Positions 15,876 to 35,528 of a DNA stretch of 64,000 nt are shown here, piece after piece. Origin of the DNA: Gammaproteobacteria bacterium (GTDB lineage: Bacteria > Pseudomonadota > Gammaproteobacteria > JAUZRS01); NCBI GenBank assembly GCA_030949385.1, contig JAUZSP010000008.1:62001-126000 (forward strand), written 5' to 3'. The notes beneath the pieces are model-generated. The model was not told where the DNA came from and made no database searches. It worked only from the letters and a program-made list of their open reading frames with translations. The translations under genes were made by a program, and so were the position numbers. The number at the start of each line of letters is the position of its first letter. The stretch's first letter is position 1.

Positions 15876-15960
15876 GGAGGGGTTCCCGAGCGGCCAAAGG
15901 GGGCAGACTGTAAATCTGCTGGCTCTGCCTTCGGAGGTTCGAATCCTCCCCCCTCCACCA
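15876..15960 (+). tRNA. tRNA-Tyr (GTA)
   Basis: An 85-nt class II tRNA with a long variable arm; acceptor GGAGGGG pairs with CCCCTCC, anticodon GTA at 15910-15912, T-arm GGTTCGAATCC, encoded CCA. Confidence 0.97.
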
Positions 15961-15986
15961 ATTTTTTATCTGATACGTTCGGGTAT

Positions 15987-16061
<75 letters not shown>

Positions 16062-16113
16062 TATTGGATTAAGAGGTTCGGTTTTTGACGAGCTTTTAGA
16101 TTGTTTTTAGTTT

Positions 16114-16189
<76 letters not shown>

Positions 16190-16239
16190 AATTTGTGTTT
16201 ATATGTAGTCGTTAATTTTAATAGAGTGGGGTTGTCCTG

Positions 16240-17430
16240 ATGTCTAAGGAAAAGTTTGAACGTACAAAGCCGCATGTGAATGTGGGAACCATCGGTCACG
16301 TTGATCATGGCAAAACCACACTGACCGCTGCGTTGACAAAAGTGGGTGCGGAAGCGATGGGTGGCGAATTCAAGGACTACGGTGATATTGATAATGCACC
16401 GGAAGAGCGCGAGCGTGGTATTACCATCGCGACGGCTCACGTCGAATATGAAACCGAAAATCGTCACTACGCTCACGTTGATTGCCCTGGCCATGCTGAT
16501 TATGTGAAAAACATGATCACCGGTGCGGCGCAGATGGATGGCGCGATTCTGGTTTGTTCTGCTGCGGATGGTCCCATGCCTCAAACCCGCGAACACATCT
16601 TGTTGGCGCGTCAGGTTGGCGTACCGTACATCGTTGTTTACATGAACAAAGCGGACATGGTTGACGACGACGAGCTGCTTGAGCTGGTTGAAATGGAAAT
16701 CCGCGAGTTGTTGGATTTGTATGATTTCCCAGGTGACGATACCCCCATCGTTATTGGTTCTGCGTTGAAAGCGTTGGAAGGCGACAACAGCGAGATTGGT
16801 ACCCCCTCCATCGTTAAATTGATGGAGTATCTGGACAGCTACATTCCAATGCCTGAGCGTGCCATTGATCTGCCGTTCTTGATGCCCATTGAAGATGTGT
16901 TCTCCATCTCCGGTCGTGGCACCGTGGTTACCGGTCGCATCGAACGCGGCGTGGTCAATGTCGGTGAAGAAGTTGAAATTGTCGGCATCAAAGATACGGT
17001 CAAAACCACCTGTACGGGTGTTGAGATGTTCCGTAAGTTGCTGGATCGTGGCGAAGCAGGCGACAACGTCGGTGTGCTGCTGCGTGGCGTGAAGCGTGAA
17101 GACGTGGAGCGTGGTCAAGTTCTGTGTAAAGCAGGCAGCATCAACCCACACACCAAATTTGAAGCGGAAGTGTACATTTTGTCAAAAGATGAGGGCGGTC
17201 GACACACCCCATTTTTTGACGGCTACCGTCCGCAGTTCTATTTCCGTACCACCGACATCACCGGTGCCTGTGATCTTCCCGAAGGGATTGAGATGGTCAT
17301 GCCAGGTGATAACGTGAAGATGGTCGTTACTTTGATCGCACCGATTGCGATGGAAGACGGCTTGCGCTTCGCGATTCGTGAAGGTGGACGTACCGTTGGC
17401 GCGGGTGTCGTCGCGAAGATTTTCGAGTAA
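16240..17430 (+). CDS. tuf: Elongation factor Tu, copy 1
   Basis: A 396-residue GTPase that brings aminoacyl-tRNA to the ribosome. G1 GHVDHGKT is at residues 19-26, DCPGH is the G3 motif, and the NKAD block is the G4 motif. It starts with ATG. Its protein is identical to that of the second copy at 32578-33768, and I see only seven base differences between the two genes, four of them in the last 25 bases. It sits in the tRNA cluster corresponding to tufB of E. coli. Confidence 0.98.
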
Positions 17431-17445
17431 GTATTTAAGCGGTTT

Positions 17446-17474
17446 CGTGCGGTGAGCCTTGGCTTACCGCCACG
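17446..17474 (+). other. Hairpin between tuf and tRNA-Trp
   Basis: A strong stem (CGTG-C-GGTGAGCC with GGCTTACC-G-CCACG, TT loop, one bulged C) without a T-run. It is more like an RNA processing site between the tuf mRNA and the tRNA than a terminator; the role is inferred. Confidence 0.5.
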
Positions 17475-17480
17475 TGTTAC

Positions 17481-17556
<76 letters not shown>

Positions 17557-32577: not shown

Positions 32578-33768
32578 GTGTCTAAGGAAAAGTTTGAACG
32601 TACAAAGCCGCATGTGAATGTGGGAACCATCGGTCACGTTGATCATGGCAAAACCACACTGACCGCTGCGTTGACAAAAGTGGGTGCGGAAGCGATGGGT
32701 GGCGAATTCAAAGACTACGGTGATATTGATAATGCACCGGAAGAGCGCGAGCGTGGTATTACCATCGCGACGGCTCACGTCGAATATGAAACCGAAAATC
32801 GTCACTACGCTCACGTTGATTGCCCAGGCCATGCTGATTATGTGAAAAACATGATCACCGGTGCGGCGCAGATGGATGGCGCGATTCTGGTTTGTTCTGC
32901 TGCGGATGGTCCCATGCCTCAAACCCGCGAACACATCTTGTTGGCGCGTCAGGTTGGCGTACCGTACATCGTTGTTTACATGAACAAAGCGGACATGGTT
33001 GACGACGACGAGCTGCTTGAGCTGGTTGAAATGGAAATCCGCGAGTTGTTGGATTTGTATGATTTCCCAGGTGACGATACCCCCATCGTTATTGGTTCTG
33101 CGTTGAAAGCGTTGGAAGGCGACAACAGCGAGATTGGTACCCCCTCCATCGTTAAATTGATGGAGTATCTGGACAGCTACATTCCAATGCCTGAGCGTGC
33201 CATTGATCTGCCGTTCTTGATGCCCATTGAAGATGTGTTCTCCATCTCCGGTCGTGGCACCGTGGTTACCGGTCGCATCGAACGCGGCGTGGTCAATGTC
33301 GGTGAAGAAGTTGAAATTGTCGGCATCAAAGATACGGTCAAAACCACCTGTACGGGTGTTGAGATGTTCCGTAAGTTGCTGGATCGTGGCGAAGCAGGCG
33401 ACAACGTCGGTGTGCTGCTGCGTGGCGTGAAGCGTGAAGACGTGGAGCGTGGTCAAGTTCTGTGTAAAGCAGGCAGCATCAACCCACACACCAAATTTGA
33501 AGCGGAAGTGTACATTTTGTCAAAAGATGAGGGCGGTCGACACACCCCATTTTTTGACGGCTACCGTCCGCAGTTCTATTTCCGTACCACCGACATCACC
33601 GGTGCCTGTGATCTTCCCGAAGGGATTGAGATGGTCATGCCAGGTGATAACGTGAAGATGGTCGTTACTTTGATCGCACCGATTGCGATGGAAGACGGCT
33701 TGCGCTTCGCGATTCGTGAAGGTGGACGTACCGTTGGCGCGGGTGTCGTCGCCAAAATCTTTGAGTAA
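32578..33768 (+). CDS. tuf: Elongation factor Tu, copy 2
   Basis: A 396-residue protein identical to copy 1 (16240-17430), corresponding to tufA of E. coli. It begins with GTG where copy 1 has ATG. The few base differences sit at the first codon, at two third positions in the first 300 bp, and in the last 25 bases, leaving almost 900 identical bases between; this is the pattern left by gene conversion. It ends 12 bp before rpsJ. Confidence 0.98.
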
Positions 33769-33780
33769 TTGGTGACCCTT

Positions 33781-34098
33781 ATGAGCAAAGAAACACAAAC
33801 AATTCGCATCTCCTTGAAAGCCTTCGATCATCGTCTGTTGGATCGTTCGGCGCAGGAAATTTTAGAAACCGCTAAGCGCACAGGCGCACGAGTGCAAGGG
33901 CCAATTCCTCTGCCCACTCGTAAAGAGCGTTTTACCATTTTGATCTCGCCTCACGTTAATAAAGATGCGCGTGATCAGTACGAAATCCGTACTCACAAGC
34001 GTTTGATGGACATTGTGGAGCCAACAGACAAGACTGTTGATGCGCTTATGAAGCTTGATTTGGCTGCCGGTGTTGATGTGCAGATCAAATTGAACTAG
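33781..34098 (+). CDS. rpsJ: 30S ribosomal protein S10
   Basis: A 105-residue 30S head protein that also binds NusB/NusG in antitermination. [16 protein letters not shown] and the [15 protein letters not shown] motif are standard. ATG 33781 has GGTGA upstream. It directly follows tuf2, while 173 bp with its own promoter separate it from rplC, unlike the E. coli S10 operon where the leader precedes rpsJ. Confidence 0.98.
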
Positions 34099-34127
34099 GC
34101 GTTTTCGGTTGTCAGTGATGTTTGGGC

Positions 34128-34156
34128 TTTACCCCTTTAAACATCACTGTTATAAT
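34128..34156 (+). promoter_or_regulatory. Extended -10 promoter between rpsJ and rplC
   Basis: TTTACC (34128-34133), a 17-bp spacer and TATAAT (34151-34156) with TGT before it (extended -10). A 10-bp inverted repeat, AGTGATGTTT (34114-34123) and AAACATCACT (34139-34148), brackets the -35 and spacer and could be an operator. Confidence 0.68.
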
Positions 34157-34169
34157 CGCGCTCCTTTCT

Positions 34170-34202
34170 GACCCAGAGCAGGATTTATCTTGTCTCTGGG
34201 TC
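34170..34202 (+). terminator. Leader hairpin before rplC, possible attenuator
   Basis: GACCCAGAG (34170-34178) pairs with CTCTGGGTC (34194-34202), followed by TTGTTTATT. It begins about 7 nt after the predicted start of the rplC transcript. In E. coli, L4 controls the S10 leader by attenuation; a similar role here is inference. Confidence 0.6.
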
Positions 34203-34271
34203 TTGTTTATTGGCAATTAGTGAAACGGCATCGGTCAATCGAAATCGATGTGCTGCACGAAGGAATAACTC

Positions 34272-34916
34272 ATGGCAATTGGTGTTATCGGGCGTAAAGC
34301 TGGGATGACTCGCCTCTTTACCGACGACGGTGTTTCGATACCGGTGACGGTGGTTGAGGTTGATCCCAATCGCATTACTCAAGTTCGCAGTAATGAGGTT
34401 GATGGCTATCGCGCCTTACAGGTGACGGTAGGTTCACGTAAAGTCTCGCGCCTGACAAAGGCGGCGGTAGGTCACTTCGCAAAAGCGGGTGTGGAAGCCG
34501 GTCGAGGTTTGTGGGAGTTCCGTTTGGCTGACGGTGAAGGCGAAGATTTGACCCTTGGTGGTCAAATTGACGTCAGCATGTTCGCAGACGGTCAGAAGGT
34601 GGACGTTTCTGGTATCACCATCGGTAAAGGTTTTGCGGGCGCGGTGAAGCGTCACAATTTCCAAATGCAAGATGCAACGCACGGTAACTCTGTGTCGCAT
34701 CGTGCGCCCGGTTCCATCGGTCAAAACCAAACCCCGGGTCGTGTCTTTAAAGGCAAACGCATGGCAGGTCACATGGGCAGTGTTCGTCGCACCATTCAAA
34801 ACCTGCAAGTGGTTCGTGTTGATGCGGAAAGAAACCTGTTGTTGATCAAGGGTTCTGTTCCTGGCTCCAAGAACGGTGACGTTATCGTGCGGCCTGCTGT
34901 TAAGAGCAAGGCATAA
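34272..34916 (+). CDS. rplC: 50S ribosomal protein L3
   Basis: A 214-residue protein near the peptidyl transferase centre. [14 protein letters not shown] begins the protein, and the extension with [33 protein letters not shown] is typical; its Gln is the methylated residue in E. coli. It opens the run rplC to rpsQ. Confidence 0.98.
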
Positions 34917-34925
34917 GGGGAGATA

Positions 34926-35528
34926 ATGGAACTCAAAATAGAAAATGGTGCAACCATTGAGCTGAGTGATGTGGCTTTTGGTGGCGACTATAACGAAGCT
35001 CTGGTTCATCAGGTGTTGACCGCGTATTTGGCTGCGGCTCGCAGTGGTACCAAGGCACAGAAAAACCGTTCTGCTGTCAGTGGTGGCGGAGCAAAGCCCT
35101 GGCGTCAAAAAGGCACCGGTCGAGCTCGTGCAGGTACCTCTCGTAGCCCGTTGTGGCGTTCAGGTGGGGTGACTTTTGCAGCCCAGCCGCGCAACTATGA
35201 GCAGAAAGTAAACAAAAAAATGTATCGCGGTGCGATGCGTTCTATTTTCTCTGAACTGCTGCGTCAAGAGCGTTTGGTGTTGGTTGAAAGCCTCTCTTTA
35301 GAAGCGCCCAAGACTCGCATGTTGGCGGCTAGGTTGAAAGAATTGAATGCCAGCCAGGCGTTGATTGTCGCTGATGAAGTGGACGAAAACCTCTATCTGG
35401 CCTCGCGCAACTTGCCTCATGTACATGTGGTTGATGCCACAGCAGTCGAGCCGACCAGTTTGATCGGTTTTGACAAGGTGGTGGTCACCGTTGCAGCGAT
35501 GAAGCAAATTGAGGAGTGGTTGTCATGA
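34926..35528 (+). CDS. rplD: 50S ribosomal protein L4
   Basis: A 200-residue exit-tunnel protein, also the autogenous regulator of the S10 operon in E. coli and an inhibitor of RNase E. The tunnel loop carries [20 protein letters not shown]. The stop overlaps the rplW start (ATGA, 35525-35528). Confidence 0.98.

Follow-up and report, generated by a model that had tools for sequence, protein, structure and literature searches.

The control of the S10 operon by ribosomal protein L4 is a textbook feedback loop. In our window (the whole stretch of 64,000 nucleotides that was analysed), rpsJ (encoding S10/NusE; 33781–34098, forward strand) has its ATG at 33781, only 12 bp downstream of tuf (32578–33768), a spacing from which we infer that it is probably read together with the str genes. 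By contrast with this 12-bp spacing, 173 bp lie between the end of the rpsJ stop codon at 34098 and the ATG of rplC at 34272, in agreement with the coordinates on which the original prediction of a displaced control point was built. The gene for L3, rplC (34272–34916, forward strand), is the first of a proposed rplC-headed S10 operon, and it is followed by rplD (34926–35528, forward strand), encoding L4, the putative regulator. From 5' to 3', the gap contains an inverted repeat, a promoter-like site, a first hairpin with a U-tract, a second hairpin and an AAGGA motif, and together with the first bases of rplC (34099–34285) it folds far better than its shuffled versions (z −5.05; 0 of 200).

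An octaloop hairpin before rplC

The best-supported element of the gap is the second hairpin (34228–34251, forward strand), a putative L4 site whose 8-bp stem (34228–34235 paired with 34244–34251) carries the octaloop CAAUCGAA at 34236–34243 (consensus CAAUCGNA). It adjoins the ribosome-binding site of rplC, since the Shine-Dalgarno-like AAGGA (34260–34264, forward strand) lies 8 nt past it. The original prediction had placed a control point between rpsJ and rplC, and that part is strengthened here, but this key element was absent from its list. We looked for the hairpin in the rpsJ-rplC gaps of 80 named loci (two of them without rpsJ) and of further genomes of the class, which provided 203 distinct gaps for the octaloop scans, 220 for a comparison with 23S rRNA and 236 for counts of gap types; loci without both genes and duplicate gaps were left out of the 203-gap scans, from which a rule against gaps longer than 700 bp removed none. 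Many of these loci are near kin, and the counts given below are not counts of independent events. The family of the host is represented by two genomes, its own and that of one congener, in which the gap is also 173 bp long and the second hairpin is identical.

Allowing one mismatch in the octaloop, the hairpin was present in 32 of the 203 gaps, compared with 0.16 (maximum 2) in 100 rounds of shuffling. When sequences were selected by the octaloop CAATCGNA alone on the plus strand of the gaps, 32 of 35 loops were closed by at least five pairs, 30 of them by 8–9; the same octaloop was closed in none of the 93 copies found on both strands of 973,656 bases of sequence from elsewhere, and in neither of its two copies on the minus strand of the gaps. 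The stems covary: in 34 different hairpins taken from 32 loci, pairing holds in 98.2% of the cells, and double-sided changes occur at seven of the eight stem pairs (55 cells of this kind vs 14.5 after shuffling), although this set was pre-chosen for stems of at least 5 bp and the selection by loop letters is the fairer test. The stem is nearly always of 8 bp, with six outer pairs that change in concert, a seventh pair that is G-U or A-U, and a closing pair that is U-A, C-G or, once, U-G. Its position varies little, the octaloop ending 23–32 nt before the ATG in 37 of 42 gaps (38, 38, 59, 69 and 220 nt in the others). Six of these 42 gaps measure at most 90 bp, which leaves little room for a promoter and therefore indicates translation as the level of control. 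Five loci (L073, L086, L094, L096 and L100), from four Woeseiaceae and one unclassified gammaproteobacterium, have two octaloop hairpins 47–50 nt apart, with different stems, at about 74 and 26 nt before rplC.

A model of the hairpin found one strong match in the genome of the host, which was this gap (E 8e-6, as expected by construction; the next at E 1.09), and matches in 36 of 370 genomes of the class. Among the 37 class matches, 33 stand before rplC, in 33 genomes of 18 families, one is inside a thiolase-like gene and three are in fetched stretches without rpsJ or rplC. Hairpins from 22 of these 33 genomes had been supplied to the model; the other 11 had not contributed to it, and eight of them have hairpin letters new to the model. 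At E 0.01 the model failed to find G054 and G283, two of the genomes from which it had been built. These comparisons of sequences show that the second hairpin is conserved and specific as an RNA element and that it precedes rplC at a nearly constant distance. Rfam 15 has no family for the gap, a search of 33700–34400 at E up to 5 having given a single match, a mir-499 line over the inverted repeat, which is far below the gathering threshold and was discarded as due to chance. Likewise, no family was found for the E. coli leader at E up to 1 or for eight related loci at gathering scores. The only Rfam matches at gathering scores in the window are tRNAs, with four tRNA genes upstream at 15876–17553. 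We did not find the element in the open papers that we searched, and the primary papers on the E. coli leader and on its distribution may hold an earlier report. The accessible portions of PMC2965389, PMC2659441, PMC2704228 and PMC7247131 name no gammaproteobacterial rplC leader, and the accessible part of Table 1 in the last lists no gammaproteobacterial rplC or L4 leader.

Promoter-like site and terminator-like hairpin within the gap

The extended −10 promoter of the original prediction is present at 34128–34156 (forward strand). It is of the sigma-70 type, with a −35 TTTACC (34128–34133) and a −10 TATAAT (34151–34156) that together give 10 of 12 matches, a 17-bp spacer, TG before the −10 and CGCGC after it, and transcription is predicted to start at about 34163. 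Since the promoter pattern alone is not above chance in this region (1 found, 0.8 expected), we turned to a comparative test in relatives, for which 79 of the 220 gaps were selected by length (90–700 bp). Promoter-like sites alone were found in 36 of these 79 gaps, against 15.1 after shuffling. A promoter-like site with a hairpin starting 6–19 nt past the −10 was found in 26 of the 79, against 0.4 (maximum 3) in 40 rounds of shuffling; in three of them (L190, L196 and L250) the octaloop hairpin itself was scored as the immediate hairpin after TATATT, so that the clean count is at most 23. The gaps with a promoter-like site and a GC-rich hairpin include those of Woeseiaceae, a member of the Granulosicoccaceae, a Chromatiales genome and several other families, and those of Thioalkalivibrio (L026 and L060), which fail the rule of our script, are similar by eye. 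The data from relatives thus lift the promoter-like site and the first hairpin, taken together, above chance.

This first hairpin and its U-tract (34170–34211, forward strand) would begin at about +8 of the predicted transcript. The hairpin (34170–34202) has 9 + 5 bp (−22.4 kcal/mol, z −6.5) and, as in intrinsic terminators and attenuators, its GC-rich stem is directly followed by a U-tract, UUGUUUAUU (34203–34211). A strict terminator scan of the same strand did not list it, probably because 15 bases lie between the 9-bp outer arms and the scan allows at most 8. The original prediction had described an attenuator-like hairpin here, and we consider it a predicted attenuator or terminator-like element; it is identical in the congener. 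Between the −10 and the ATG, only two of 121 columns differ from the congener (one substitution and one base deleted just before the Shine-Dalgarno), compared with 21 of 164 fourfold-degenerate sites in rpsJ and rplC (p 0.0006). In this one genome pair, the promoter core and both hairpins are constrained, and the inverted repeat is not, apart from its pairing as RNA. Promoter and hairpin, whose conservation in relatives the original prediction had left to be looked for, are therefore both kept in the congener and recurrent in the long gaps. Five other loci (L104, L145, L155, L213 and L256) present by eye a terminator-like hairpin with a T-run between rpsJ and the octaloop hairpin, without a gap promoter passing the promoter and hairpin rule; it is possible that this is a partial terminator lowering the expression of the S10 operon relative to str.

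L4 as the candidate ligand

In E. coli, the leader bound by L4 precedes rpsJ, and L4 exerts its control there at the levels of transcription and of translation, as described in the portions available of three sources (PMC10931766, PMC7186457, PMC10578931), the last of which reports that stem D is needed for L4 control. According to the accessible text of the first two, domain I of 23S rRNA competes with the S10 leader for L4, both being known L4 targets (PMC7186457, PMC10931766). In the E. coli leader, a hairpin that precedes a U-run has CCCAU-CAAUCGUA-AUGGG as its tip. From its position, we take this octaloop-tipped hairpin to be the attenuator hairpin E. All seven fixed positions of the octaloop agree with those of the rplC hairpins, as does the closing U-A pair. 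The original prediction was right to see a connection with the L4-controlled leader of E. coli, in that the same octaloop stands here beside the ribosome-binding site of rplC. With the hairpin model, the E. coli hairpin receives a low score (16.8 bits, E 0.15 in 176.5 kb).

We compared further leaders from the order of genome G226, which appears to be that of E. coli, keeping the best 30 of 76 genomes that matched the E. coli leader-rpsJ stretch, among 99. The octaloop, which in E. coli and in these leaders reads CAAUCG[UA]A, is present in seven of the 30 and absent from 23, and the hairpin model reports four of the 30 at E up to 1 (best E 0.01). It stands on at least three different stems: CCCAU/AUGGG in L304–L306, UCCAU/AUGGA in L307, UCCUGU/ACAGGA in L308, and stems of 6 bp in L309 and L310. 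The leaders of Aeromonas, Shewanella, Idiomarina and Moritella are without octaloop and have another hairpin (HD) in common. We therefore dropped the octaloop shared with E. coli as a proof of homology, given its absence from these four genera and from the 23 leaders; its retention in E. coli and in the seven others is suggestive of homology. A hairpin of the HD type, presumably stem D (stem ..UCC[C], loop RAUNN, GGA.., a consensus taken by eye from the compared leaders) is absent from the 173 bases of the window gap, which contain a single TCC.

A different element occupies the same rplC-proximal spot in 21 of 220 gaps, where the sequence resembles 23S rRNA (14 gaps from Marinobacter, one each from Oleiphilus, Spongiibacter, SAR92 and Porticoccaceae, and three from other genomes of the class). 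The best of them has 48 identities in an ungapped alignment of 60 bases with E. coli 23S rRNA nt 288–347, presumably part of domain I (score 72 vs a shuffled maximum of 31). Seven of eight loci tried exceed all of their 100 shuffles, and the score of L102 (32) is below the maximum of its shuffles (37). Eight of these look-alikes align with 23S rRNA over the core GGGU..-AGCCCCGUAC.C, and their extent on the E. coli molecule is nt 317–343 in Marinobacter L030 and nt 288–347 in L270. The loci concerned include L270, L273, L269/L229, Marinobacter L030, L072, L074, L095 and L102. Such a look-alike before rplC is likely an L4 leader that mimics rRNA. The window gap was also tried as a 23S mimic and rejected (score 22 vs a shuffled mean of 23.4 and maximum of 31).

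We consider it probable that the gap serves the feedback of L4 on an S10 operon headed by rplC, with translation as the level of action and with its own promoter and attenuator, and that rpsJ goes with str. The assignment to L4 would follow from the octaloop common to the E. coli L4 leader, from the position, and from the mimic of 23S domain I at the same spot. The 173-bp gap would then constitute the 5' control region of the operon, in which the sigma-70-type promoter, judging from its sequence and conservation, would yield a transcript whose leader, up to rplC, is about 109 nt long. The first hairpin and U-tract may stop a part of this transcript and of the read-through from str-rpsJ, and would thereby set the ratio of the two transcription units. 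L4 in excess over free 23S rRNA would bind the octaloop hairpin and keep ribosomes off the adjoining Shine-Dalgarno, so that L3, L4 and their coupled genes would be repressed, whereas rpsJ, 12 bp behind tuf, would escape the L4 loop and follow str. Because the polymerase passes the terminator-like hairpin before it reaches the octaloop hairpin, L4 bound to the latter could not drive termination as in E. coli, which makes control of translation likelier.

The strongest competing explanation, to which we give perhaps one chance in a handful, is that the octaloop hairpin is a genuine ribosomal-protein operator for another ligand encoded in the S10 operon (L3, L2 or L23), its match to E. coli being due to convergence or chance. 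The weak model score of the E. coli hairpin and the 23 related leaders without octaloop agree with it, as does the window gap itself, which has no 23S likeness that would name the ligand. Against it, the E. coli octaloop matches all seven fixed positions and the U-A closing pair and is found on different stems in seven leaders, and the look-alike of domain I, the very region that competes for L4, occurs at the same spot in other gaps. It is rather improbable that the gap is an ordinary operon boundary in which the octaloop hairpin serves mRNA stability or ribosome access without any feedback by a ribosomal protein: in several gaps (L088, L104, L145, L155, L180 and L211), as judged by eye, rpsJ is indeed followed by a terminator-like hairpin with a T-run ahead of the octaloop hairpin, but stability requires neither a near-invariant octaloop whose stem covaries freely nor its constant distance from a single gene.

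Finally, the inverted repeat announced by the original prediction over the −35 and spacer is present, with 11 bp instead of 10 (34113–34149, forward strand; arms 34113–34123 and 34139–34149, loop of 15). In RNA form, it would be a hairpin of −16.3 kcal/mol in the tuf-rpsJ read-through transcript. That it is a transcription-factor operator controlling the gap promoter is very improbable: of 1000 dinucleotide-shuffled versions of the gap, only 2 contain a perfect repeat of at least 11 bp, but two arm changes in the congener break the symmetry of the DNA and leave the RNA paired through G-U, and the sequence upstream of the −10, where the repeat lies, evolves at the rate of fourfold-degenerate sites (8 of 53 positions differing vs 21 of 164, p 0.65). 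Three loci (L055, L205 and L210) have by eye other inverted repeats before the −10 in place of that of the window, with arms near ATCACTRCA...TGTAGTGAT, and long inverted repeats, which look like insertions, precede the promoter in L096 and L100 (by eye). The gaps of these last two and of L069 are near 700 bp.

Evolutionary history and relation to known systems

Returning to the L4 feedback site before rplC as our preferred reading, its distribution bears on the history of this control. Among 236 gaps, 42 have the octaloop hairpin, 21 the 23S mimic and 173 neither, numbers that include loci fetched by the model's own matches and are not frequencies; gaps with neither element have a median length of 40 bp. 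Short tuf-rpsJ spacings (at most 30 bp) are found in 25 of 34 loci with the octaloop hairpin vs 76 of 135 of the remaining loci, and the spacing exceeds 130 bp in all 17 mimic loci with tuf in view. We built a quick tree from rpsJ, rplC and rplD (101 rows, 516 columns, LG+G4, SH-aLRT only), keeping one row for each distinct rplC, only loci with complete proteins, and 45 of the 80 rows of other type. The minimum number of changes on this tree is at least 10 for the octaloop, 2 for the mimic and 3 for the E. coli type, a label that misses L308–L310, whose leaders fail the HD pattern; each state is clustered when compared with shuffled labels (20.9, 16.8 and 14.2, respectively).

Octaloop rows are scattered over deep branches, one of them beside the E. 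coli-type group, whereas 15 E. coli-type rows fall in one region; E. coli may therefore be the lineage whose site moved, on a tree that cannot polarise gain versus loss. The original prediction held that the control point had moved one gene down: rpsJ does follow tuf closely, and the connection with the E. coli L4 leader is retained, but the direction holds relative to E. coli only. More tentatively, the rplC octaloop hairpin could be a widespread and perhaps older L4 operator of the class, from which the E. coli leader would be a derived relocation that kept the octaloop at the tip of its attenuator, with a copy of part of 23S rRNA swapped in at the same spot by the Marinobacter type. If true, this would overturn the view expressed in the available portions of a 2024 review, in which L4 control is described as having arisen late, as lacking in Pseudomonas and as poorly conserved even within the gammaproteobacteria (PMC10931766). 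The presence of a covarying element one gene further on in 33 of the 370 genomes of the class, and of the 23S look-alike at the same spot in another group, suggests that the L4 loop has been overlooked because it was sought before rpsJ. With control next to rplC, the L4 loop would no longer include S10, the antitermination factor NusE, and a switch between the two sites can be tested with one small RNA and one protein.

The gap resembles the E. coli S10 leader in belonging to the same operon, in the TATAAT-GCGCGG of its promoter region and in the apical octaloop before the start codon of the first gene. It differs in that it lies before rplC instead of rpsJ, with an L4 action that is putative, and in that the octaloop sits on a separate hairpin, 3' of the terminator-like one, so that the E. 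coli order, in which the L4 site precedes the termination point, is not that of the window gap. It is also comparable to the L4 r-leader candidate of Archaeoglobi, described in the accessible text of its source as a predicted L4 leader of genes beginning with rplC (Eckert and Weinberg 2020, PMC7247131), an archaeal element likened to ours by its description and not by its structure. A further parallel, in position, is that of the leaders of the Marinobacter type, which likely mimic rRNA: they occupy the same gap, near the start of rplC, and have the same proposed ligand but, unlike the window gap, they resemble 23S rRNA.
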